From Akkermansiaceae bacterium (GTDB lineage Bacteria; Verrucomicrobiota; Verrucomicrobiia; Verrucomicrobiales; Akkermansiaceae), in NCBI GenBank assembly GCA_018402445.1, contig JAGYIT010000007.1, positions 992,001 through 1,056,000 of the forward strand: 64,000 nt of DNA. The letters run 5' to 3'. The translations under genes and the position numbers were made by a program. A model generated the notes under the pieces. It made no database searches. It was not told the origin of the DNA and saw only the letters and a list, made by a program, of their open reading frames with translations. Each line of letters opens with the position of its first letter. Position 1 is the stretch's first letter. This document shows positions 3,844 to 17,410 of this stretch, piece after piece.

Positions 3844-4497
3844 ATGGCAATTCCCCTAATCATCGGCCTCGGAAATCCCGGTAGGCAATACGAGGAGACC
3901 CGGCACAACGTGGGTTTCATGCTTCTCGACCGCATCGCCGCGAGGGAAGGGGTTGTTTTCAAAACGGAGCCGAAGTGGCAGGCTCACCTCGCGAAGCTGC
4001 CCGACGGCACCCTCCTGATGAAACCGCAGACCTTCATGAACCTCAGCGGGCGCTCGGTGCGGCAGTTGGTCGCTTTCCATAAATGGGAGATCGGCGACAT
4101 CCTAGTTGCCTACGATGACGTCGCACTGCCGCTGGGGCATTTACGTTTCCGGGAAAAAGGATCTGCGGGCGGGCACAACGGGATCAAGTCGATCATCGAG
4201 CACCTCGGCGGTGATGGCTTTCCTCGCCTGAAAATGGGAATCGGAGCCGCAAACGGATCGGGCGGGATGACCGGGCACGTCCTCGGGAAGTTCGCGCCGG
4301 ACGAACGGGAAAGCCTTGAAAACATGCTTGCCATGGCCTGCGATGCAGTTCATGTTTCGCGCTCCCAAGGTATCGCCTTGGCATCGAACCGATTCAACAC
4401 ACCAAGAACTAAACCAACCCCGAAACACGAAGATGAGCCGCAAATACGAAGGTCTGATTGTCCTGACAACGAAGAGCCAAGAGGGCAGCATGGATGA
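3844..4497 (+). CDS. pth: Peptidyl-tRNA hydrolase
   Basis: Releases tRNA from peptidyl-tRNA dropped off ribosomes; essential in most bacteria and cytosolic. From the ATG at 3844 the protein shows all family signatures: IIGLGNPGRQYEETRHNVGF (about 6-25, with the catalytic His), MKPQTFMNLSG (about 60-70), YDDVALPLG and SAGGHNGIKSI (catalytic and substrate Asn/Asp region). It is 217 residues, about 25 longer than typical, because its hydrophilic tail continues through the beginning of rpsF. The overlap is 65 nt in another frame, which suggests translational coupling, or a lost earlier stop codon. Confidence 0.93.
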   Translation: MAIPLIIGLGNPGRQYEETRHNVGFMLLDRIAAREGVVFKTEPKWQAHLAKLPDGTLLMKPQTFMNLSGRSVRQLVAFHKWEIGDILVAYDDVALPLGHLRFREKGSAGGHNGIKSIIEHLGGDGFPRLKMGIGAANGSGGMTGHVLGKFAPDERESLENMLAMACDAVHVSRSQGIALASNRFNTPRTKPTPKHEDEPQIRRSDCPDNEEPRGQHG

Positions 4498-4720
4498 CCT
4501 GGTCACCGCCATCACCAAGGACATCGAGTCCGCGGGCGCGAAGGTCGAGAAGATCGACAATATGGGGCGGAAAGATTTCGCCTACACGCCGCGCAAGGTC
4601 AGCGGTGCGCATTTCGTGACCTACACGATCACCGGCGGCCCCGAGTGCATCTTGGAAATCAAGGCGAAGCTCGCGCTCAACACCGCCGTTTACCTCAATC
4701 AGTTCAACCGCGTCGCCTAA
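4433..4720 (+). CDS. rpsF: 30S ribosomal protein S6
   Basis: Binds the central domain of 16S rRNA with S18. It is 95 residues, the normal length. MSRKYEGLIVLT starts the family fold, and DNMGRKDFAYTPRKVSGAHF is the conserved rRNA-contact region. The start lies inside the 3' part of pth. The next gene is ssb, as in many genomes, but rpsR and rplI, which often follow, are absent here. Confidence 0.95.
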   Translation: MSRKYEGLIVLTTKSQEGSMDDLVTAITKDIESAGAKVEKIDNMGRKDFAYTPRKVSGAHFVTYTITGGPECILEIKAKLALNTAVYLNQFNRVA

Positions 4721-4759
4721 GCATCGGGCGACAATCTGTCCATTTTCCTCTTCTTTGGA

Positions 4760-4780
4760 ATTTAAAATTTAAAATTTTCT
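4760..4780. repeat. Heptanucleotide-phased leader repeat before ssb
   Basis: Units GGAATTT, AAAATTT and AAAATTT run up to 10 nt before the ssb ATG. The tract is preceded by CCTCTTCTTT, resembling the reverse complement of the GGAAGAGG seen beside two other tracts. Confidence 0.55.
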
Positions 4781-4787
4781 CACCGCC

Positions 4788-5246
4788 ATGGCCAATCTCA
4801 ACAAAGTAATGCTCATCGGAAATCTGACCCGCGATCCGGAGCTACGCCATACGCCGAAGGGCTCGGCCGTCGCCGACCTCGGCCTGGCTGTGAACCGCAA
4901 GGTGCAGGACGGCAACGGCGGCTGGAAGGAGGAGGTCACCTTCGTGGATGTCACGGTCTGGGGAAGCAGCGCGGAAAACGCCCAGAAATACCTCACGAAA
5001 GGCCGCGGTGTGTTCATCGAAGGCCGCCTCCAGATGGATGTGTGGGACGACAAGGCCACCGGCCAGAAACGTAGTAAGCTCAAGGTCGTGGCAGACATAC
5101 TCCAATATTTGCCTGACGGCAAGGGCGGTGCCCCCCGCCAATTCTCCGACAATTCTACCGGCGGTGAAGATGGCGGTGGCTCGCGCCAAGGCGGTTCCGC
5201 CGCGCCAGCCGACGACTACCAGGAAGAGGACGATATCCCGTTCTGA
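4788..5246 (+). CDS. ssb: Single-stranded DNA-binding protein
   Basis: Coats single-stranded DNA during replication, repair and recombination and recruits partners through its acidic tip. It is 152 residues. The N-terminal OB fold (about 1-110) contains MANLNKVMLIGNLTRDPELR and WGSSAENAQKYLTKGRGVFI. A Gly/Ser-rich linker follows, then the tip EEDDIPF at the extreme C-terminus. A second copy of the last 36 nt of this gene lies at 13561-13596. A hairpin with a T-tract follows about 30 nt after the stop. Confidence 0.96.
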   Translation: MANLNKVMLIGNLTRDPELRHTPKGSAVADLGLAVNRKVQDGNGGWKEEVTFVDVTVWGSSAENAQKYLTKGRGVFIEGRLQMDVWDDKATGQKRSKLKVVADILQYLPDGKGGAPRQFSDNSTGGEDGGGSRQGGSAAPADDYQEEDDIPF

Positions 5247-5277
5247 TATACCCGGTCGCCGCCATTTGATATCTAAC

Positions 5278-5315
5278 GACCCCGTTGCTTTTAGGCATTG
5301 GGGTCTTTGCTTTTT
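5278..5315 (+). terminator. Probable terminator after ssb
   Basis: GACCCC (5278-5283) pairs with GGGGTC (5300-5305) around a 16-nt loop. TTTGCTTTTT follows. The stem is short, so confidence is moderate. Confidence 0.55.
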
Positions 5316-5376
5316 GTGACAAGCTCGTCACACCGAACGGATTGTTACGGAGATATGCTCCCGGCGATTTTGCTGT

Positions 5377-7851
5377 GTGTTCAGAACGTGGCGCGTATGC
5401 ATCGTTTTCCTATCCCTCGCAGCGGGCGTCCGCGGGCAGAGCGATGATCTTTTTGACGGGATTGTCACGCCGGGACTGAGGTTCCTGGGTCGTGAGGCGA
5501 GGGAACTGATGGTTTACGAAGAGCCATGGCTGGGGAGGTCTCCGGCGGCGGATGTGAAATGGCGGGTCGATTACGACGAGCGCGACCAACGGCGACGGGC
5601 GGCGGATTCCTATGAAGTCTCGCAGGCCGAACTCTTCAAGCGCCGCATCGGCGGGAGGGTCGATGTGCCGTTGCGCACGGATGACAGTCTGGACGGCGAG
5701 TGGTTCGACCTGAAAACCTATGCGGCTTGGTTCTCGCGGCGCGATGACGAGCTTTCCTGGCAATCCCGGATCCGTTTCAAGGTCGAGATCCCCGACCACG
5801 ACGCCGGTATCATGTTCTATTACCGCCACCGCGAGCGCAACGACCGCTCCGTGAGCGAGCGTACGAAGTGGGCGGGTGCGCAGAACATGCCGGACGGCGC
5901 GGACATCGCCTTCATCGACGAGCACGAGCTGAGATCCAGCCCCGAGGACGAGATCATGGACGAGGTGGCGGCGGTGCTGAGGTGGAATTTCACGCCGGGA
6001 TCGCGGCTGCTGCTGGGCGGGACATACCGGAAACAGGAGGATCACCTGATGGAGCAGCGCCTGGAATACGACACCCGGGCGGGGACGGTGGAGCTGCCGG
6101 GATCGGCTCCGCGCCGGGGCTATCCCTATCAGAGTGATACGGATGTGGTCAGCGGGGGAATCGTCACGGAGGGAACCCTGATCCCGGGAGTGGGTCGGTT
6201 GGAGAAACAGCTCAAGGACGAGGTGGAGAACAAGGAGCGCTGGGCGGGCTTCCTCGATTTCCGTCACGAATACGGGGAGCGGAGCTGGGTGGATGTGCGG
6301 GCGGATTACTCGAAACGGACGAACCGCGAACCCGACCGCCAGGACACGGAGTTCTCGGAGCGCCCCGATGCGATGTGGAGCTACCGGCTCGTGGGCGGCA
6401 GGCCGGTTTTCGAGGCGACGCCATTGCCCCAGAACACCTTCGGAGTGCGCAAGATCGAGCTGGAGAACAACATCAAGCAGACCGAATACGCCTATGCCCA
6501 GGCGCTGATCCACCATGAGGTCTCGCCCGGCCACGCGGTGGAGGCGGGCGGCTTCGCGCAGCGATACTCCGACAAGCGCGACATCAATTTCACCCGCTTC
6601 GAGCCGCCGGTTGCGGCGGCGAACGGCTTCGACGAGGTGGCGGGCGGGCCGGTGGATTCCATCTTCGGCATCCACATCGGCAACGGCATCGATCCGGGGA
6701 GGGCGCGGGCGTTCTTCGCGAACAACGGCGGTGCGCTTTCCCTCCGCCCGGCGGAATCGTTTTTCAAAACCTTCGGAGAGGACTACGACATGGAGCGCGA
6801 AATCGCGGGCGGGCACGCGCTCTACCGCTTCGACCATGAGAAATGGCGCGTCCACGCGGGCGCGAGGTTCGAGTCCGCCCACACTTCCGGCACGGCGTTC
6901 GACGCGCAATGGACGGGCAACGAATCCCCGATCCGCCCGCCCCGTGTGGAGGCGGCGGTGCGGCCGACGTCGATGTCAAAACGGGAAGACGACCTGCTGC
7001 CGGCCCTCCTCGTGGAATACCAGCCGGAGAAGAACTGGCATTTCTCCGCAAACCTCAGGCAGACCCTCCAGCGCCCGGAACTCCGCGAGTCCGCGCCGTC
7101 GCGCTATTTCAACGAGGATGACGGGGTGACGCCGGTGGCGAGATTGGGAAATCCGAACCTCGACTCCTCGCGGCAGACGCAACTGGTGCTGACCGGCAAC
7201 CACGCCTTCGCGCCCGGCTCCATGATCCGCGTGCGGGCGGAGGCATGGCAGCTTGAGAAACCGCTGACCTCGGCGGGATGGTTCGCGCCGATGGCCCTCG
7301 ACAACACCGACATCACCAACCGCCCGCTGCGGAACTACCGCTTCGAGCAATCCCTCAACGCCGATGACGGCGAGCTTTTCCGCCTCGGCCTCCACTACGC
7401 GCAGACCCTGCATTTCCTGCCGCACCCGTTCGATCAGGTGGGGCTGTTCTCCTTCTTCGATTTCACCCACAGCAGCCAGCAGGTCACGGTGGACGGGAAC
7501 CGCCGCGAGACCTCCCTCGCCTACCAGCCGGACATTCGCGGCGGCGCGGGCATCTTCTACCGCAGCAGTAAATGGGACGCCATGCTCTTCGCGGACATCT
7601 ACGACAAATACCTCATCTCCGTCGGCGAGCAGGCGAACGGACTTTCGGGCACGGGGGATCTCTACGTGGACGACCGCATCACGCTCAACGCGAGCGTCAC
7701 CTACCGCATCACGGAGAACCTCGAGGTTTACACCGAACTCCACAACCTCACCGATTCCGAGATCCGGCTCTACGAGGGCAGCGCCCAGCGCCAGATCCTC
7801 CGGGAAAAGGAAGGGCGCAGCGTGCGGCTGGGGCTGCATTGGTTTTTCTAA
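5377..7851 (+). CDS. TonB-receptor-like outer-membrane beta-barrel lacking a plug domain
   Basis: An 824-residue exported protein. The first 20 residues look like a signal peptide ending near GVRGQ. From about residue 50 it is barrel-like throughout, with alternating aromatic strands such as WQSRIRFKVEI. The late segment LPALLVEYQPEKNWHFSANL, then RQTLQRPELRESAPSRYF and LGNPNLDSSRQTQLVL, is the classic TonB-dependent receptor barrel pattern. The chain ends in Phe-Phe, as barrels do. I see no TonB box and no plug domain; upstream DNA to ssb has no room for one. The GTG at 5377 is the only usable start in frame. An out-of-frame ATG at 5355 also encodes a hydrophobic start, so a frameshift near the 5' end is possible. 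It heads the cassette with the two frameshifted secreted genes downstream. Confidence 0.72.
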   Translation: MFRTWRVCIVFLSLAAGVRGQSDDLFDGIVTPGLRFLGREARELMVYEEPWLGRSPAADVKWRVDYDERDQRRRAADSYEVSQAELFKRRIGGRVDVPLRTDDSLDGEWFDLKTYAAWFSRRDDELSWQSRIRFKVEIPDHDAGIMFYYRHRERNDRSVSERTKWAGAQNMPDGADIAFIDEHELRSSPEDEIMDEVAAVLRWNFTPGSRLLLGGTYRKQEDHLMEQRLEYDTRAGTVELPGSAPRRGYPYQSDTDVVSGGIVTEGTLIPGVGRLEKQLKDEVENKERWAGFLDFRHEYGERSWVDVRADYSKRTNREPDRQDTEFSERPDAMWSYRLVGGRPVFEATPLPQNTFGVRKIELENNIKQTEYAYAQALIHHEVSPGHAVEAGGFAQRYSDKRDINFTRFEPPVAAANGFDEVAGGPVDSIFGIHIGNGIDPGRARAFFANNGGALSLRPAESFFKTFGEDYDMEREIAGGHALYRFDHEKWRVHAGARFESAHTSGTAFDAQWTGNESPIRPPRVEAAVRPTSMSKREDDLLPALLVEYQPEKNWHFSANLRQTLQRPELRESAPSRYFNEDDGVTPVARLGNPNLDSSRQTQLVLTGNHAFAPGSMIRVRAEAWQLEKPLTSAGWFAPMALDNTDITNRPLRNYRFEQSLNADDGELFRLGLHYAQTLHFLPHPFDQVGLFSFFDFTHSSQQVTVDGNRRETSLAYQPDIRGGAGIFYRSSKWDAMLFADIYDKYLISVGEQANGLSGTGDLYVDDRITLNASVTYRITENLEVYTELHNLTDSEIRLYEGSAQRQILREKEGRSVRLGLHWFF

Positions 7852-7863
7852 CAGATTTTTTTT

Positions 7864-9408
7864 ATGGGATACGGCAAAATCATCATCGGCGGCGCGGCGT
7901 GTTTCCTGGCCATGGGAAAACTCTCGGCGCTGGAGTTCGTGGGCGAGGCGCGGCTGCCGGCAGGCTCCGCGGAAATCCTGGCCTACGAACCGGCCACCAA
8001 GCTCATCTACAGCACGCGGGGTTCCTCCATGGCGAAAGGGTTGGTGGTCATCTCGCTGGCGGAGCCGCACAAGCCACAGGTCGTCGGCGAGATCGACCTG
8101 CGGAAAATCCATCACAGGGGCGTGGATTCCGTCTCCTCCGTGGCCGCCGATCCGTTGGGGCGGGGGATCATCGCGGCCTCGATCATCCCGAAGCATCCCA
8201 CCGAGTTCACCGGCAGGGTTGCGCTGATCGACGCCCGCAGCCGCGAGATCGTCCATGTCGTGGATGTCGGCTGGCATCCGGATTGCCTCAGCTTTTCCGA
8301 GGACGGCCGCTATCTCCTTGCCGCCTGCGAGGGCGAGTATGCGAAGGGGAAAACCAACAGGCCCGGCTCGCTCGGCGTCGCGAATTTCTCCAAGGTGAAA
8401 TCGGCGGCGGATCTGGGTTCCGTGCATTTCAAGGATCATCCTCTCGGCCCGAGGGAGGCCGTCAAAGGCGTCCGTTTCCCCTACGAGACCGACCCCTCGC
8501 GGCTCCACCTCGACTTCGAGCCGGAATACGTGACCTCCGACGGAAAGAACGCCTACGTTTCCCTCCAGGAAAACAACGCGCTCGGGGTCTTCGATCTCGC
8601 GGGCGGGTATTGGAAAAAATCATCCCCTTCGGCGCGTGGCCGGTGCGGGCGGATGTATCGGATCGCGACGGGCCGTGGGGCAGGCGCTCGATCAAGGTCA
8701 CCGACGAGGTGCTGGGTATGCCCATGCCGGATACCATCGACATGCTCAAGGTCGGCGGGCGTCCCCTGATTTTCACCGCGAACGAAGGCGACGGCGACAA
8801 CATCGCGCGGGTGAAACACCTCGGCAAAGTCATCGCCCTCGCTTTGCCCGGAATACCGCGCGGAACTCAAGGCGATCTACGGCATCGATCCCCAGCAGGA
8901 TGCCGGGCTGGGCCGGCTACAGGTCTCGCAGGTGGACGGCCTGAACGAACGCGGCCAGATCGAGAAACTCCACATGATGGGCACCCGTTCCTTTTCCATC
9001 TGGGATCCGGCGACCGGGAAACGGGTCTATGACTCGGGATCCTTTTTCGAGGATCACGCCGCGCAGCACGACCGCGAATCGTTCAACCACAACCGCGGCT
9101 CGCTGGCGCAATGGGACCGCCGCTCCGACAACCGCGGCCCGGAAACCGAGGCCATCTGCACGGCGATGGTGCGCGGCGTGCCGATGGTGTTCGTGGCCAA
9201 CGAGCGCCAGAACGGACTCTACGCCTTCAACATCTCCAACCCGTCCTCGCCCAAGCTGCGGGGCTACTACTGCGGCGGGCGGCACCGCCACATCTATCCC
9301 GAGTGCATCCTTTTCCTGCCCAAAGACGCTACCCCGCTCGGCCGCGAAGCCATCGTGACCGCCTGGGAAGCTTCCTCCTCCATCACCATCCACATTCCCA
9401 CACCATGA
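7864..9408 (+). pseudogene. Choice-of-anchor I-like secreted propeller protein, two frameshifts
   Basis: It starts 12 nt after the barrel gene with a signal peptide (about 1-20, ending LSA). The first frame (7864 to about 8614) encodes propeller-like repeats such as VDVGWHPDCLSFSEDGRYLL and FEPEYVTSDGKNAYVSLQEN. The frame is lost at a run of six A at 8614-8619, where seven would restore it. It resumes as RPLIFTANEGDGDNIARVK, a signature of choice-of-anchor I family proteins. It is lost again near 8845 and resumes to the stop at 9408 with LYAFNISNPSSPKLRGYYCG. All three pieces are collinear parts of one protein of about 514 residues. Sequencing error or real decay are both possible. The function of the family is not settled; some members sit beside phosphatase-like genes. 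Confidence 0.65.
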
Positions 9409-12400
9409 AATCCATCATCACACTCCTCCTCGCCTGCGCCACCCTGGCCACCGCCAACACCGTCCTCATCACCGAGGTGAACTCGAACGCCTCCGGCGGC
9501 GACTTCTTCGAACTCCACAACTACGGCGCAAGCCCCGTGAACATCAACGGCTGGAGATGGACGGACGATCAGGCCAACTTCCAGGGAGACAAGATCGTGA
9601 CCTTCGGAGATGTGACGATTCCCGCAGGTGGCATCCTCGTCGTCGTCCAGGCTGCGGATGATATCGGTTTTCCGCGCCGCCTGGAATGATCTCGATCCCG
9701 CCATCGCCACCGCCGCCATCGGCGGCCCCGGTCTCGGCCAAAACGATGCGGTCGTCCTCTTCGATGCGGACGGCGATTTTGTCACAGGGTTCAATTACAA
9801 GGCGGGCAATGTCACTGTCACACAGGGGGACACCACCACCGTCACGCTCCCGCCCATGACCAGGATCGACGGCAACCCATCCGGCGGCGGGCACGCGGGA
9901 ATCGCCGCGGGCGGCACGATAGGCACCGTCTCCGCCGTTTGGGATCCGAACTCCGGCACGACCGAACCCCGCTACACTTTCGCGGCGCTCGGAAGCCTCT
10001 CCGCCTATGCACAAACCGGCAGTCGCCGCCAGCATCGGCTCACCCGGCCTGGTAGGCACCGGTGTGGTCGGGAACGCCCCACCCGTCTTTTCCAGCAGCC
10101 CGCGCACTTTCGGCGTGGAGGGCTTCGATCTCTCCAACTCCCAGTTCTTCGTCACCGCCAGCGACCCGAATCCCGGCGATGTCGTCACCCTCAGTGTGGT
10201 GGAAAAGCCCGAGTGGCTGAACGTGAACCTCACCAGCGGAGCGGTCACAGGCACGCCGCCTGCAAAGGGCGATTACACGTTCGTCATGCGCGCCACCGAC
10301 AACGCCGCGCCCCCGCTCTTCACCGAGCAGACCATCACCATCACCGTATTCCCGGAAAGCTCGAGCGTCCTGCTCAACGAATATAACGCCGTTTCCGCCA
10401 CGAACTTTCCCGGCGGCGGCACTTTGGAAAGCCCCACCACCTCGGACACCTTCTTCGGGCGCATCCTCGGAAACGGCGGCGAGTGGTTCGAGCTGGTCGT
10501 CGTCGGTGACGGCACGGCCGGTTCCACGGTGGATATGCGGGGCTGGAAAGTCGAGGTGCTCGGCGATCTCGGCCTGCGCTCGATGGTTCTCTCGCAAGAC
10601 CCCTACTGGGCCAACGTCGCGGCGGGCACCCTCCTCACCTTCATCACCAACAACGCGGCCAACGGCGGCGCGGACACGGAAATCCACAAGTCCAGCGCGC
10701 TCCATAACGATGGCTTCCTGTGGTCGAACATCTGGCTTTTCGATCCGGTCTTCATCGACCAGGCGGCATCCGATTTCAACAACCGCCTCGGCATCAGCAA
10801 CAGCGACACGAACATCCTCATCCGCGACGCGAGCGGCGAGATCATCTTCGGCCCCGCCGGCGAGGGCATCGCCACCGGCGGTGAGCCTCCGAACCCTGTG
10901 GGTGTCAGCTCCACCGAGGTGCTGAAACTGGAGACCAACCCCGAGCCGTTCATCGACCCCTTTTACAGCCCCTACAACGACGGCTCCACCTCCACCTTCG
11001 GCGGGCCGAACGTCTGGTCGGGCGGCGCGAACTCGCAATCCTTCGCGGCCTACCAGTCCGCGAACTCGCCGCCTCAATTCACCTCAACGCCCGTGACCCG
11101 CGCCTACGGCTCCTATAGCTACGCGATCACCACCAGCGATCCGAACAGCCACTCCGTGACCCTGTCCGCCACGGAGCTCCCGGATTTCCTCACGCTCACA
11201 CCCGGCGCGGGCGGCACCGCGACCCTGGAGCTGAACCGCGCGCTGACTTTGGCGGATGCCGGTTTCCACACCGTGCGCCTCGTCGCCAATGACGGCCAGC
11301 CCGCCAACAACCTCACCCCGCAGGCTTTCCTTCTGACCGTTTTCCACGACGCCCCCACCGTGATCCTCAACGAATACAACGCCGTCTCCGCGGAAAACTT
11401 CCTCGGCGGAGATGACAGCGGAAGCGGTGGACACCCACTTCGGCCGCGTGCCGGGCAACGGCGGGGACTGGGTGGAGTTCGTGGTCGTCGGAAACGGCGG
11501 CCCCGGCACCGTGGACATGCGCGGCTGGGCCATCGAGATCGGCACCTCCCGCGCCGGGACTCTTTTTGAAACCTCCAACACGCTGACCCTCAGCCAGGAC
11601 GCGGCGTGGTCAGCAGTACGCACGGGAACCATCCTCACCTTCACCGCCGCGAACACCGCGGGCGGCGGCCTCGATACCGGCTTCAACCTGCGCGACCGCT
11701 CCACCACCCTCGGCGATTCATGGAGCAATGTCTGGATGGGCGATTCGCAATACGTCTCCGTCAGCGGCGCGACCGTCGATGGAAACACCGTAACGGACAT
11801 CCGCATCAGCGCGGACGACACCCAGTTCATGGTGAAAAACGCGCTCGGACACATCGTCAACGGCCCGGTGGGCGAGGGGATCGCGCCGCTTTCCGGCATT
11901 TCTTCCACGGAAATCTTCGAGCTGGAGGGCGATCCTTCGCCTTCCGTCCCTCCTTTCATCGCTTCGGATGACACCGTGGAGCCACCCGTGGAAGGCTACG
12001 ACGATGGCTCCACCGGCTCCACCTTCGGCTCGCCCAACGAGTGGAAAATCGGAGCGGGCGGAGATCCGACCTCGCAGGATTTCACCCCCTACATCAGCGC
12101 AGAGCCGGAAGATCCGTTTCGACACCTGGATCTCCGCTTTCAACCCGCCGCCATCCGACCTCACCAAGCTCGGCGATCCCGATGGCGACGGCCGCTCGAA
12201 CTACGAGGAATACGCCCTCGGCGGCGATCCCCGCTTCCACGACGCGCCGCCCGCCCAGACCGTCAACCGCACCGGCGCGGACATCGTCTGGAGCTTCGCC
12301 GTGCGCGACGATGCCGGCATCGATTACACGCCAAAGCGCTCCCCGGATCTCACGCAGTGGTTCGAGTTCACCGCGCCGCAGATCCAGAGCGTGCCACATC

Positions 12401-12495
12401 CGGATCTGGCTGACTTCCTACTCATCACCATCACCGCCACCGCCGTTGCCACGGACGGCAAGGAGTTCGTGCGGGTGGAGTTTGTGATCCCGTGA
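9405..12495 (+). pseudogene. Large secreted lamin-tail-like multidomain protein, four frameshifts
   Basis: The ATG overlaps the previous stop (ATGA). A signal peptide (MKSIITLLLACATLATA) leads into a lamin-tail-like domain (VLITEVNSNASGGDFFELHN). Frames change near 9665, 10020, 11410 and 12117, but the pieces join into one protein of about 1,030 residues. Order: lamin-tail-like domain, a cadherin/Ig-like domain (ASDPNPGDVVTLSVVEKPEW), domain copy A beginning VLLNEYNAVSATNF, another Ig-like domain, then copy B beginning VILNEYNAVSAENF. The C-terminus carries the calcium-loop-like GDPDGDGRSNYEEYALGGDP and a beta-rich tail. The tail type is frequent at the end of secreted verrucomicrobial proteins. 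The product probably acts at the cell surface together with the barrel. No catalytic motif is visible. Confidence 0.62.
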
Positions 12496-12649
12496 AACGC
12501 CAGACCTCCGGATAAGCAAAAGGAATCCCCAACGTGAAGAAAACGTCACTGTTTCGGGATTCAAAAGGACAGTGATTTCCGAGATACGAATGCGGCTCGT
12601 TCATGCAACGCTACGCCCGATTCCCCAGAACAACATTACGATAAACATC

Positions 12650-13462
12650 ATGAAACAAACCAAGACATTGCTCGCATTCATCTCCCTTGCCCTCGCCTCG
12701 CAGGCGTCCGGTGCGCTCATACTTAACGAATACAACGCCGTCCGTGCGGATCGCTGGCTTGATGCGGATGGACTCGCAGCCTCTACAGCAAGCGACACCT
12801 TTTTCGGTCGCATCGTTGGAAATGGCGGTCGCTGGTTCGAGACTCTGGTTGTCGGAAACTCAAGCGTACCGGGAGCAACCATAGATATCCGCGGCTGGTC
12901 TTTCGGGTGGACAAGCACCGATGTGGCAAGCGGCAGCTTCACTCTTACCAACAATGCCGCGCTCAGTGCGGTTCATCGTGGCACACTCCTGACATTTTTT
13001 TCCCAGGATGCAAGCGGTCCGAATGTCGAGACGAATTTCAACACTTACGATCCTACGAACGGTAACTGGTGGCTGAACATTAACCTTGCCGACGGCGCTT
13101 ACATCGCATCTGGAACGCTCGATACTGGCAATGGCAACTGGCAGCTCACTATAAGGGACGCATCGAATGCCGTTGTCTTCGGACCTGCGGGTGAAGGTGT
13201 GGGCACTTTCAGCGGTGTCAGTTCCCGTGAGGTTGGCAAACTTGAGGCCTTCACCTCCGCGACTATCACCGAATGGCAGGGCATCACTCCAAACTCCATT
13301 GAGTATGAGGACGGCACAAGCAGCACCTTCGGATCCGCAAACCTGTGGAGCGGCGCTTCCAACCAACAGGACTTCAGCTCCCTGCGCGTCATCCCCGAAC
13401 CCTCCACCGCCCTGCTCGGCGGACTTGGCCTTCTCGCGCTGCTTCGCCGAAGCCGTAAGTAA
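12650..13462 (+). CDS. PEP-CTERM protein with a single lamin-tail-like domain
   Basis: A 270-residue exported protein. The signal peptide (MKQTKTLLAFISLALASQAS) is followed by one copy of the domain found twice in the upstream gene: LILNEYNAVRADRW, then DTFFGRIVGNGGRWFETLVV, IDIRGWSFGW and VVFGPAGEGVGTFSGVSSRE. The C-terminus VIPEPSTALLGGLGLLALLR, then RSRK, is a textbook PEP-CTERM sorting signal, recognised by exosortase (EpsH-type), which is not in this window. The ATG at 12650 was chosen because it starts the signal peptide; the frame is open from 12572. The protein likely ends up in the envelope or extracellular matrix. A hairpin terminator follows. Confidence 0.85.
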   Translation: MKQTKTLLAFISLALASQASGALILNEYNAVRADRWLDADGLAASTASDTFFGRIVGNGGRWFETLVVGNSSVPGATIDIRGWSFGWTSTDVASGSFTLTNNAALSAVHRGTLLTFFSQDASGPNVETNFNTYDPTNGNWWLNINLADGAYIASGTLDTGNGNWQLTIRDASNAVVFGPAGEGVGTFSGVSSREVGKLEAFTSATITEWQGITPNSIEYEDGTSSTFGSANLWSGASNQQDFSSLRVIPEPSTALLGGLGLLALLRRSRK

Positions 13463-15276: not shown

Positions 15277-15806
15277 GGCAGGGGCGGCGGGCTGACGACG
15301 CGGATAAGATCCTCGCCGTCCGTTCCCTCAAGGGAAACATAAACATGATCGAGCCGCGAGGTTTCCAGCGCGATGCCGGTGTAATCGGCGTGGATGGGAA
15401 GCTCGCGGTGGCCGCGGTCGATGAGCGCGGCGAGTTGCACCTTTGCGGGGCGGCCGTAGTCGGAAAGGGCGTCGAGCGCGGCGCGGATGGTGCGGCCGGT
15501 GAAGAGCACGTCATCGACGAGGATGATGTGTGCGCCATCGACAGGGAAGGGGATGTCGCTTTCCTGGAGCTTGGGGTTTGAGTGGAGGTGCTCGAAGTCG
15601 TCGCGGTAGAGCGAGATGTCGAGCACGCCGAAGTTCAGCTCGCGGTCGTCTGCGGACAGGTGGGTGAGCAGGCGTTCCGCGACCTCGTCGCCGCGCGAAC
15701 GGATGCCGACGAGCGCGATGGTTCCGTCGGGGTTTGCGGCGCGGATGGACTCGGCAAGGTTCGCGATGCCCGCCGCGATGTCGTCCGGGGTGAGGGTGAT
15801 TTTCAC
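15273..15806 (-). CDS. pyrR: Bifunctional pyr operon regulator / uracil phosphoribosyltransferase
   Basis: PyrR-type phosphoribosyltransferase of 177 residues from a GTG at 15806. The PRPP loop IILVDDVLFTGRTIRAALDA is intact, and IALVGIRSRGDEVAERLL is the usual N-terminal part. Family members bind pyr mRNA in response to UMP and may salvage uracil. Its place in an operon with pyrB fits. The reading frame is also open upstream into the purD C-terminus, with no stop between. It may therefore be fused to PurD, or purD may end at the TGA that overlaps this GTG (GTGA) if one more base error is assumed. Confidence 0.88.
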   Translation of the reverse strand: MKITLTPDDIAAGIANLAESIRAANPDGTIALVGIRSRGDEVAERLLTHLSADDRELNFGVLDISLYRDDFEHLHSNPKLQESDIPFPVDGAHIILVDDVLFTGRTIRAALDALSDYGRPAKVQLAALIDRGHRELPIHADYTGIALETSRLDHVYVSLEGTDGEDLIRVVSPPPLP

Positions 15807-17083
15807 GGATTCCGGCGCATGGGATTTCGCCTCGGGGAAATGAAGGATGCCGATGTCGCGGCGGCGCTGGAGGCCGTCGAAGCGAGATCTCATCGGCGAG
15901 CGGCGTGGGCGGCGGCAACGGTGGAGCTGCGCGCTCCGGACCGGTGGCCACGCAGGCGAGCACGCGCCCGCCGTTCGTCTGCCATTCGGTGCCCGTGAGT
16001 TTCGTGCCGGAGTGGAAAACCCGCGCGCCGGTTTCATCGAGGCCGGAGATCACATCGCCGGAGCGGGAGCTTTCCGGATAGCCGTGCGAGGCGAGGATCA
16101 CGCACACCGACCAATCGTCGGAAAAGGAGATTAGCTCCCGTTTCAGCGCGCCCATCGCGCCGGCGAGGCAGAAGGCCGCGAGGTCGCCGCTGAGCAGCGG
16201 CATCACCGCCTGGCACTCGGGATCGCCGAAGCGGCAGTTGTATTCGATTACCTTCGGGCCGTCCGGCGTGAGCATGAGGCCGAAGTAAAGGAAGCCGCGG
16301 TAAGGCAATCCTTCTTTCCGCAGGGCGGCCACGGTCGGCGCGACGATGGACTCGTCAATGGTCGTCAGCAGCTCGGAGGAAATGAGTTTCCGCGAGGCCA
16401 CCGCGCCCATGCCGCCAGTGTTCGGGCCGGTGTCGCCATCGCCAAGGCGTTTGTAATCCCGCGCCGGGGTGAGGATCATGTAATCGTCGTCCACGATGGC
16501 GGCGAAAATGGAAACCTCCGGCCCGACGAGGCATTCCTCGACGAGCAGGCGGCCGGGGCCGAAACGTTTTTCCGTGAAGACCTCGTTGAGGAAATCGAGC
16601 GCGGATTTCTCATCCGCGCAGACAGCCACGCCTTTCCCGGCGGCCAGTCCGTCAAATTTCAGGACGGTCGGGTAATTCCCCGCGATGGCGGTGACGGCCT
16701 CGTCGAGAGACTGACAGGCGCTTGCGGCGGCGGTGGGGATCTGGTTTCGGACCAGGAAGTCCTTGGCGAACTCCTTGCTCGCCTCAAGCTGCGCGGATTC
16801 CTTCGGCGGCCCCCAGCAAGGGATGCCGTTCGCCGAGCAGAGGTTCGCGAGGCCATCGCCCGTGACGAGATAGGATTCCTCGCCCGCGATGCAGAGGTCG
16901 ATGCCGTGATCCTTTCATCCAGGCGATCAGCGAGGGCAGGTCGGTGGCGGTGGTAGGCTGCGCGATGCGGAAGATCGCGTCGCTTCCCGGGAAGGAAAAG
17001 ATCGCGGGCTTCGAGGGGGATAGAGAGAGGGTATGGATTAGCGCGTGCTCGCGCCCGCCTTTTCCTACGACAAGTATTTTCAT
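15807..17083 (-). CDS. purD: Phosphoribosylamine-glycine ligase, frameshifted
   Basis: GAR synthetase, the second step of purine synthesis (ATP-grasp, cytosolic). The ATG at 17083 opens MKILVVGKGGREHALIHTLS. The frame breaks at about 16917, where removing one G (ATGAAAGGATCAC to ATGAAAGATCAC) restores DHGIDLCIAGEESYLVTGDG. The main part then shows LLVEECLVGPEVSIFAAIVD, GPNTGGMGAV and YNCRFGDPECQAVMPLL. Near the 3' end the frame changes again (about 15885-15940) before the family terminus FDGLQRRRDIG. As purD is needed for purine synthesis, these are most likely assembly errors. The 3' boundary is therefore approximate. It leads the purD-pyrR-membrane protein-pyrB operon. Confidence 0.85.
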
Positions 17084-17185
17084 CCGCAGGTGTTTTCCCG
17101 CAAAAGCGCCGGATGGGCAAGGATGGAGATGGGGAAGTGATGCACCGCGAAGCCGGTGATGTCGGGGATTGCGATGTGTTAGATA

Positions 17186-17410
17186 GTGCCTGTGGTGCTG
17201 CCGGTGATGGGTTTGGCGCGTGCGCCGGTGCCGTGGTGGTGGCCATTCGTTCAGGCGCTGGCGCTGTCTGCGGTGACCTTCCGGCTCTATGCCTATGACA
17301 AGCGGCTGGCGATGAAAGGCGGCTGGTAGGGGCCGGAGACGAGCTTCCATCCGGAGGAAATCGCGGGCGCTTGGCCGGGGGTATTGCAGCGTGTTCGCCG
17401 GTTAGCCGGT
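17186..17410 (+). pseudogene. DUF1294 small membrane protein remnant with an internal TAG
   Basis: A GTG at 17186 starts a hydrophobic stretch ending LSAVTFRLYAYDKRLAMKGG, then W and a TAG at 17327. After the stop, the same frame continues GPETSFHPEEIAGAWPGVLQ. Together this matches the DUF1294 pattern (DK..A....WR.PE..LH.....GGWPG). The stop falls at the usual Arg position. No HKT-type ending is visible, so it is probably decayed. Similarity was judged by eye. Confidence 0.45.

Follow-up and report, generated by a model that had tools for sequence, protein, structure and literature searches.

What kind of domain stands three times in two adjacent genes, and what might it do there, is the question raised by a stretch of 64,000 nucleotides (hereafter the window) from an Akkermansiaceae bacterium of the Verrucomicrobiota (GenBank assembly GCA_018402445.1, contig JAGYIT010000007.1, positions 992,001 to 1,056,000). 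An initial annotation of these letters had described copies A and B in a large gene and copy C in a small one, had likened the domain to the lamin-tail domain (LTD) while calling it longer and distinct, and had suggested a mobile surface-binding module that is moved between large and small anchors. The analysis presented here indicates that the repeats are, with high probability, an enlarged variant of the LTD fold, a view that rests on a predicted structure and on profile homology.

Three homologous copies of one domain

The source genome comprises 3.53 Mb in 17 contigs, at 88% completeness. Copy C as the query against its own genome returned copy A at E 2.0e-38 with 42% identity and copy B at E 9.4e-28 with 43% identity, the remaining 17 of the 20 rows being mainly matches to the PEP-CTERM tail; in the alignment, identity to copy C is 43% for copy A and 39% for copy B. 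A profile built from the three copies and run against the whole genome matched just these three places, with no fourth. Given these E-values, and a profile that finds exactly three places, the repeats are far beyond chance and the copies are, judged by their sequences, homologous. The three-copy description therefore holds, with coordinates correct to within a few residues. Across 61 copies from many genomes the enlarged domain spans about 195-264 residues (median 238), and the motifs first quoted (W-x-E, DxRGW, GPxGEG and the closing STFG) are present and mostly kept: W-x-E in 61/61, GPxGE in 60/61, S(T/S)FG in 54/61 and DxRGW in 44/61.

Relation to the lamin-tail fold

The 61-copy alignment, drawn from the window and from the loci of named records, was supplied to AlphaFold2 for a model of copy C, which scored a predicted local distance difference test (pLDDT) of 89.0 and a predicted template-modelling score (pTM) of 0.89. 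When this model was compared with the PDB by Foldseek, the 14 top matches were all lamin tails (lamin A/C, B1, B2 and mouse lamin), the best at E 1.6e-3 and probability 1.00. Superposition on lamin A/C with VIA-align gave Z 9.7 at a root-mean-square deviation (rmsd) of 2.4-2.5 Å over 106-107 residues, with unrelated folds reaching Z <= 4.7. Profile comparison points the same way: hhalign against 13 ordinary bacterial LTDs returned a probability of 95.7% (E 9.8e-9), pairing W-x-E with W-x-E and D-x-R-G-W with D-L-x-G-W/Y, and a control profile in the same comparison returned 0.3%. A sequence search against solved structures found no credible relative of the domain.

In the predicted model the lamin immunoglobulin (Ig)-type beta-sandwich is kept. 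Its first strands are separated by a long insertion, after LNEYNAV, and a further insertion lies in the middle; the domain also has the GPxGEG motif and an extra section at the C-terminus that ends in S-T-F-G-x-P-N. The domain thus shares with bacterial LTDs (PF00932) the Ig-type fold, the W-x-E and D-x-x-G-W strands and homologous profiles, and differs from them in length, the Pfam model having 109 positions. At E<=1 this model matches 17 of the 61 copies weakly (best E 0.0018, below cut-off), and none of the 61 reaches the curated cut-off of 34.3 bits; a solo protein from another genome (G009) scores 21.4 bits. Since fold and profile both tie the family to LTDs and yet none of the 61 copies passes the threshold, we place it as an enlarged LTD variant outside the coverage of Pfam. 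The expectation of a lamin-tail-like but longer domain is accordingly supported by the Ig fold with large insertions and by the profile homology. That the domain is distinct also stands by the Pfam threshold, in that its profile does not fall wholly within the LTD family, though by its fold the family is clearly one of the LTDs. Secreted bacterial proteins with LTDs in tandem have been described before (Mans et al., 2004, as cited in PMC6085458); what is added here is an uncatalogued variant of an already known fold.

Distribution

Of 260 genomes from the same family, 46 contain a profile match at E<=1e-5, which is strong in 41 and weak and partial in five, all of group g22. Group g29 supplies 27 of the 46, with two copies in 26 of these 27. 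In wider, overlapping samples, matches were found in 26 of 384 genomes of the class and in 8 of 387 of the phylum. Named records gave 30 loci, mostly from Akkermansiaceae and other Verrucomicrobiota metagenome-assembled genomes (MAGs); among them are a Puniceicoccaceae, a planctomycete and a Cloacimonadota MAG, and one of the 30, from Desulfofundulus, is weak. One to four copies occur per protein, mostly about 330 residues apart and mostly with Ig-like spacers between them. One locus (L140 352-3600, in G692) has three copies that follow one another closely, and in the Cloacimonadota MAG the domain gene (L070 2952-3983) is followed by a CotH-kinase protein with three ordinary LTDs (4007-8284).

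Spread by phages or plasmids can be set aside: copy C matched none of 50,697 phage and 72,556 plasmid records, the domain had no match in viral contigs, and the fold search against viral models returned nothing under E 0.001.

Architecture of the two genes

The features of the locus are collected in Table 1. The large gene encodes, in order, a signal-like start, an ordinary LTD, a He_PIG (Ig-like) domain, copy A, a second He_PIG, copy B and a C-terminal domain; PF05345 matches two stretches in one reading frame (P0001), the best at residues 45-114 and the second farther along.

Table 1. Features of the barrel, propeller and lamin-tail gene set in the window
Feature	Position	Strand	Evidence
TonB-receptor-type outer-membrane barrel, 824 residues, first gene of the set	5377..7851	+	PF00593, E 4.8e-10
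Choice-of-anchor-I gene	7864..9408	+	PF22494; middle (about 8620-8930) in another frame
Large secreted multi-domain gene	9405..12495	+	Open reading frame list, Pfam, frame matches, intact relatives
Ordinary lamin-tail domain, first part, at the N-terminus of the large protein	9450..9656	+	PF00932, E 7.7e-10, 39.6 bits, above cut-off
He_PIG (Ig/cadherin-like) spacer ahead of copy A	10139..10348	+	PF05345, E 3.4e-10
Copy A, enlarged lamin-tail domain	10361..11065	+	Own-genome search, alignment, profile, tree
Copy B, enlarged lamin-tail domain	11363..12110	+	Own-genome search, alignment, profile, tree, frame matches
C-terminal domain of the large protein (DPDGDG-type motif and beta-sandwich)	12118..12492	+	Recurring tail, 19 places in the genome
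Small gene: signal-like start (by eye), copy C, PEP-CTERM tail	12650..13462	+	Open reading frame list, Pfam
Copy C, enlarged lamin-tail domain	12713..13390	+	Own-genome search, alignment, predicted structure
PEP-CTERM sorting tail	13391..13459	+	PF07589, 23.2 bits, cut-off 20.7

Copy C does stand alone ahead of a PEP-CTERM tail, PF07589 being above its cut-off, and the genome has an exosortase gene at another place (PF09721, E 6.8e-47, 160 bits), so that the small gene shows both hallmarks of PEP-CTERM/exosortase proteins, the C-terminal motif and the exosortase. The large protein differs from these in ending, without a PEP-CTERM tail, in another recurring C-terminal domain. This domain, found in the window and at 18 other places in the genome, consists of a DPDGDG-type motif followed by a beta-sandwich ending in FFRV/FLRV. 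A Pfam scan of the window's copy returned no family; its model reached pLDDT 91.2, and Foldseek found nothing under E 0.001, the top rows being Ig-like folds of unrelated proteins. It may be a sorting tail that replaces PEP-CTERM.

As read, the large gene spans five successive frames, with changes near 9650, 10000, 11427 and 12118, as placed by matches of the intact protein of a related genome, G169. Copy B straddles one of them, its LNEYNAV start (about 20 residues) lying in frame 2 and the rest, from about 11427, in frame 3. Relatives with the same arrangement in a single open reading frame (ORF) exist in G169 (1066 residues), G026 (996) and G018 (1031). The earlier description of two adjacent genes therefore stands only if the large gene is counted as one broken gene, for which these intact relatives speak. 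The choice-of-anchor-I gene upstream also changes frame twice (ORF list, by eye). Most of the frame breaks lie without a long homopolymer. By eye, other genes nearby look split as well, with frequent frame changes at 8600-12130 and about 15511-17350.

The frame changes in the two genes, four in the large one and two in its neighbour, could mean that the large gene is decaying into a pseudogene here, with copy C alone functional. We consider this unlikely, given that the broken gene can still be aligned piece by piece, at 44-67% identity, with the whole length of the intact G169 protein and that further split-looking genes nearby are what assembly indel errors would produce; for the latter reason assembly indels are the likelier cause of the frame changes than decay.

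History of the copies

A quick tree was calculated from 75 of the 100 collected copies, copies from 12 loci of one group and pieces shorter than 150 residues having been dropped before the count. Copy A groups with the first copy of G169 and copy B with the second, at 67% identity each. Farther out, the neighbours of copy A are first copies, and those of copy B are second, last or only copies, from other species. Because each has positional orthologs in related species, copies A and B are, by this tree, inherited positions and not freshly moved ones. Copy C, the branch of which is long, clusters with single copies of L055, G478 and G490 (Shimodaira-Hasegawa-like approximate likelihood ratio support 95), and appears to be a separate lineage, placed weakly at best.

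A recent duplication giving rise to A, B and C in this genome is rejected: constraining the three to one clade (59 rows) gave p 1.3e-8 in the approximately unbiased (AU) test, mostly because A and B each have orthologs elsewhere. Constraining copy C to copy A alone was likewise rejected (p 0.018), its constraint to copy B alone was narrowly not rejected (p 0.058), and that to three short solo PEP-CTERM forms was not rejected (p 0.26). These results leave recent movement, as first proposed for a module passing between large and small anchors, without support. Some support for interchange comes instead from ordinary LTDs that occupy the slot of copy C in related genomes.

Gene neighbourhood

The slot that follows the large gene was surveyed in 30 loci, some of them overlapping, with calls made by eye except in G169, where Pfam was used. 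The window carries copy C there, and in G169, G578, G588 and G388 the corresponding gene encodes an ordinary LTD with a PEP-CTERM-like tail; in G450 a small LTD ORF lies, by its coordinates, in the same slot. Ordinary LTDs and the enlarged form are in this respect alike, both standing before PEP-CTERM. A shared function of the enlarged and ordinary forms is suggested most strongly by the ordinary LTD-PEP-CTERM gene that related genomes have in place of copy C.

Upstream of the large gene lie a choice-of-anchor-I gene and a TonB-receptor-type barrel. The former matches PF22494 on two parts (E 1.5e-11 and 1.3e-21; 44.3 and 77.4 bits), both above the cut-off of 32, and its product is 56% identical to a G169 protein over 496 residues. 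This domain, which we take to be a beta-propeller, is separate from the enlarged LTD; it is rare, with matches in 4 of the 12 genomes searched, and the sole copy in G169 is the neighbour in question. The barrel is 63% identical to the gene in the same place in G169, and matches NCBIfam TIGR01782 at E 2.5e-52, below cut-off, from profile position 125 onward. Neither the barrel gene of the window nor that of G169 matched the Plug domain (PF07715) at E<=0.01, and none of the 6 Plug places in the window genome (G000) or the 15 in G169 lies at the barrel gene. A plugless barrel of this type is seen in two related species (window 5377-7851; L110 3493-5970).

The order barrel, choice-of-anchor-I, large LTD protein is shared by the window, G169 and a Puniceicoccaceae MAG (L053), whose barrel is 28% identical to that of the window. 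In G490 the enlarged domain and, behind it, a propeller of choice-of-anchor-I-like type (NF038117, E 2.7e-21, below cut-off) share a single ORF of 683 residues, so that the choice-of-anchor-I family (PF22494, NF038117) is linked to the enlarged LTD both as a neighbour in three genomes and as a fused relative in one.

Proposed role and alternatives

Taken together, these observations are probably best explained by an LTD variant whose task within a surface complex is docking or the binding of a ligand. That the enlarged domain itself is a putative binding or docking module of a cell-surface complex seems to us evenly balanced, and cooperation between the LTD proteins, the choice-of-anchor-I propeller and the barrel falls slightly short of that. 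In such a complex the large protein would form a rod of LTD and Ig domains and the small PEP-CTERM protein would be a member sorted by exosortase; the enlarged domain would bind another surface protein or an extracellular ligand and thereby hold the propeller protein beside the outer-membrane barrel. LTD proteins, propeller and upstream-encoded barrel could then together capture a nutrient outside the cell, a suggestion we make tentatively and regard as somewhat unlikely. Nucleotide/phosphate, or iron, are putative leads to the ligand.

Several observations weigh against this explanation. The Foldseek E-values get no better than 1.6e-3. The gene set is sparse, with the barrel in three and choice-of-anchor-I relatives in four of the retrieved genomes, and most members, the 27 genomes of group g29 for example, are not known to share it; loci of their kind have different neighbours, in many cases thymidine phosphorylase. 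The Pfam choice_anch_I model gives no match on the G490 fusion. The barrel, having no plug, is perhaps not a TonB-dependent importer; the lack of a detectable plug makes simple import less convincing and would accommodate a role in export or display. Finally, PMC6085458 reports that ExeM lacking its LTD retained a large part of its activity, so that an LTD can be an accessory. The same paper states the role of bacterial LTDs as unelucidated. In the library searched we found no paper on choice-of-anchor I function, and none treating lamin tail domains together with PEP-CTERM.

Among the alternatives, a structural adhesin or matrix survives best, although we hold it to be rather unlikely: the repeated LTD and Ig domains would be only a stalk or coat, and propeller and barrel incidental. 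The existence of large proteins with LTD and Ig domains in tandem, one to four copies in each, fits this, as do the many retrieved loci, the majority, that have neither propeller nor barrel as a neighbour; the recurrence of the gene order in three genomes, together with the one fusion to a choice-of-anchor-I-like propeller, argues against it.

Scavenging of nucleic acid, or of nucleotides and phosphate, with LTD variants holding extracellular DNA or a phosphate-releasing propeller at the surface, we judge unlikely. LTDs do occur in extracellular nucleases and in DNA-degradation loci (PMC6085458, PMC4486849, PMC8289736). The second choice-of-anchor-I ORF of the genome resembles, by eye, an ORF of G176 whose later part is a weak 5'-nucleotidase C-terminal match (E 0.0038, below cut-off), and the solo gene of a Haloferula locus lies behind one whose product combines three LTDs with an SdiA-regulated domain and a phytase-like domain. 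A thymidine phosphorylase (cluster c2) adjoins the two-copy gene in 10 loci (L060, L063, L071 and L073 among them); these are, however, confined to one related group, with the phosphorylase divergent from the LTD gene, and the gene set of the window itself encodes no nuclease or phosphatase.

Still less probable is an accessory protein of iron or haem uptake, comparable with the Bacteroidetes DUF4876 proteins, which are TonB-adjacent and induced by iron starvation. One high-scoring PDB entry, BT_1938 (4q1z, DUF4876), aligns with most of the whole copy C model (Z 9.6 over 175 residues, tied with the lamin rows), PMC10434189 describes DUF4876 genes as adjoining TonB receptors, as is the case here, and as strongly iron-induced, and the window barrel weakly matches haem-receptor models. 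The superposition is loose (rmsd 4.0), however, DUF4876 (PF16215) matches nothing in the genome at E<=1 and is missing from the 14 families listed for the 61 copies, and the barrel is without a plug.

Within the docking explanation, which we continue to prefer, a more specific arrangement can be pictured, in which the plugless TonB-type barrel would export or hold the propeller, and the enlarged and ordinary LTDs, carried by one large rod and one small PEP-CTERM protein, would be interchangeable docking modules that keep it at the surface. Such a barrel-propeller-LTD surface apparatus would be previously undescribed; the picture is speculative and more doubtful than any of the alternatives above.

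For the family, the 100 copies collected here fill a gap in the domain libraries, none of the 61 that were scanned rising above the Pfam LTD cut-off. The recurring partners of the enlarged domain, namely the barrel, the propeller, the PEP-CTERM slot and one fusion, would give a bacterial LTD a role that can be tested.

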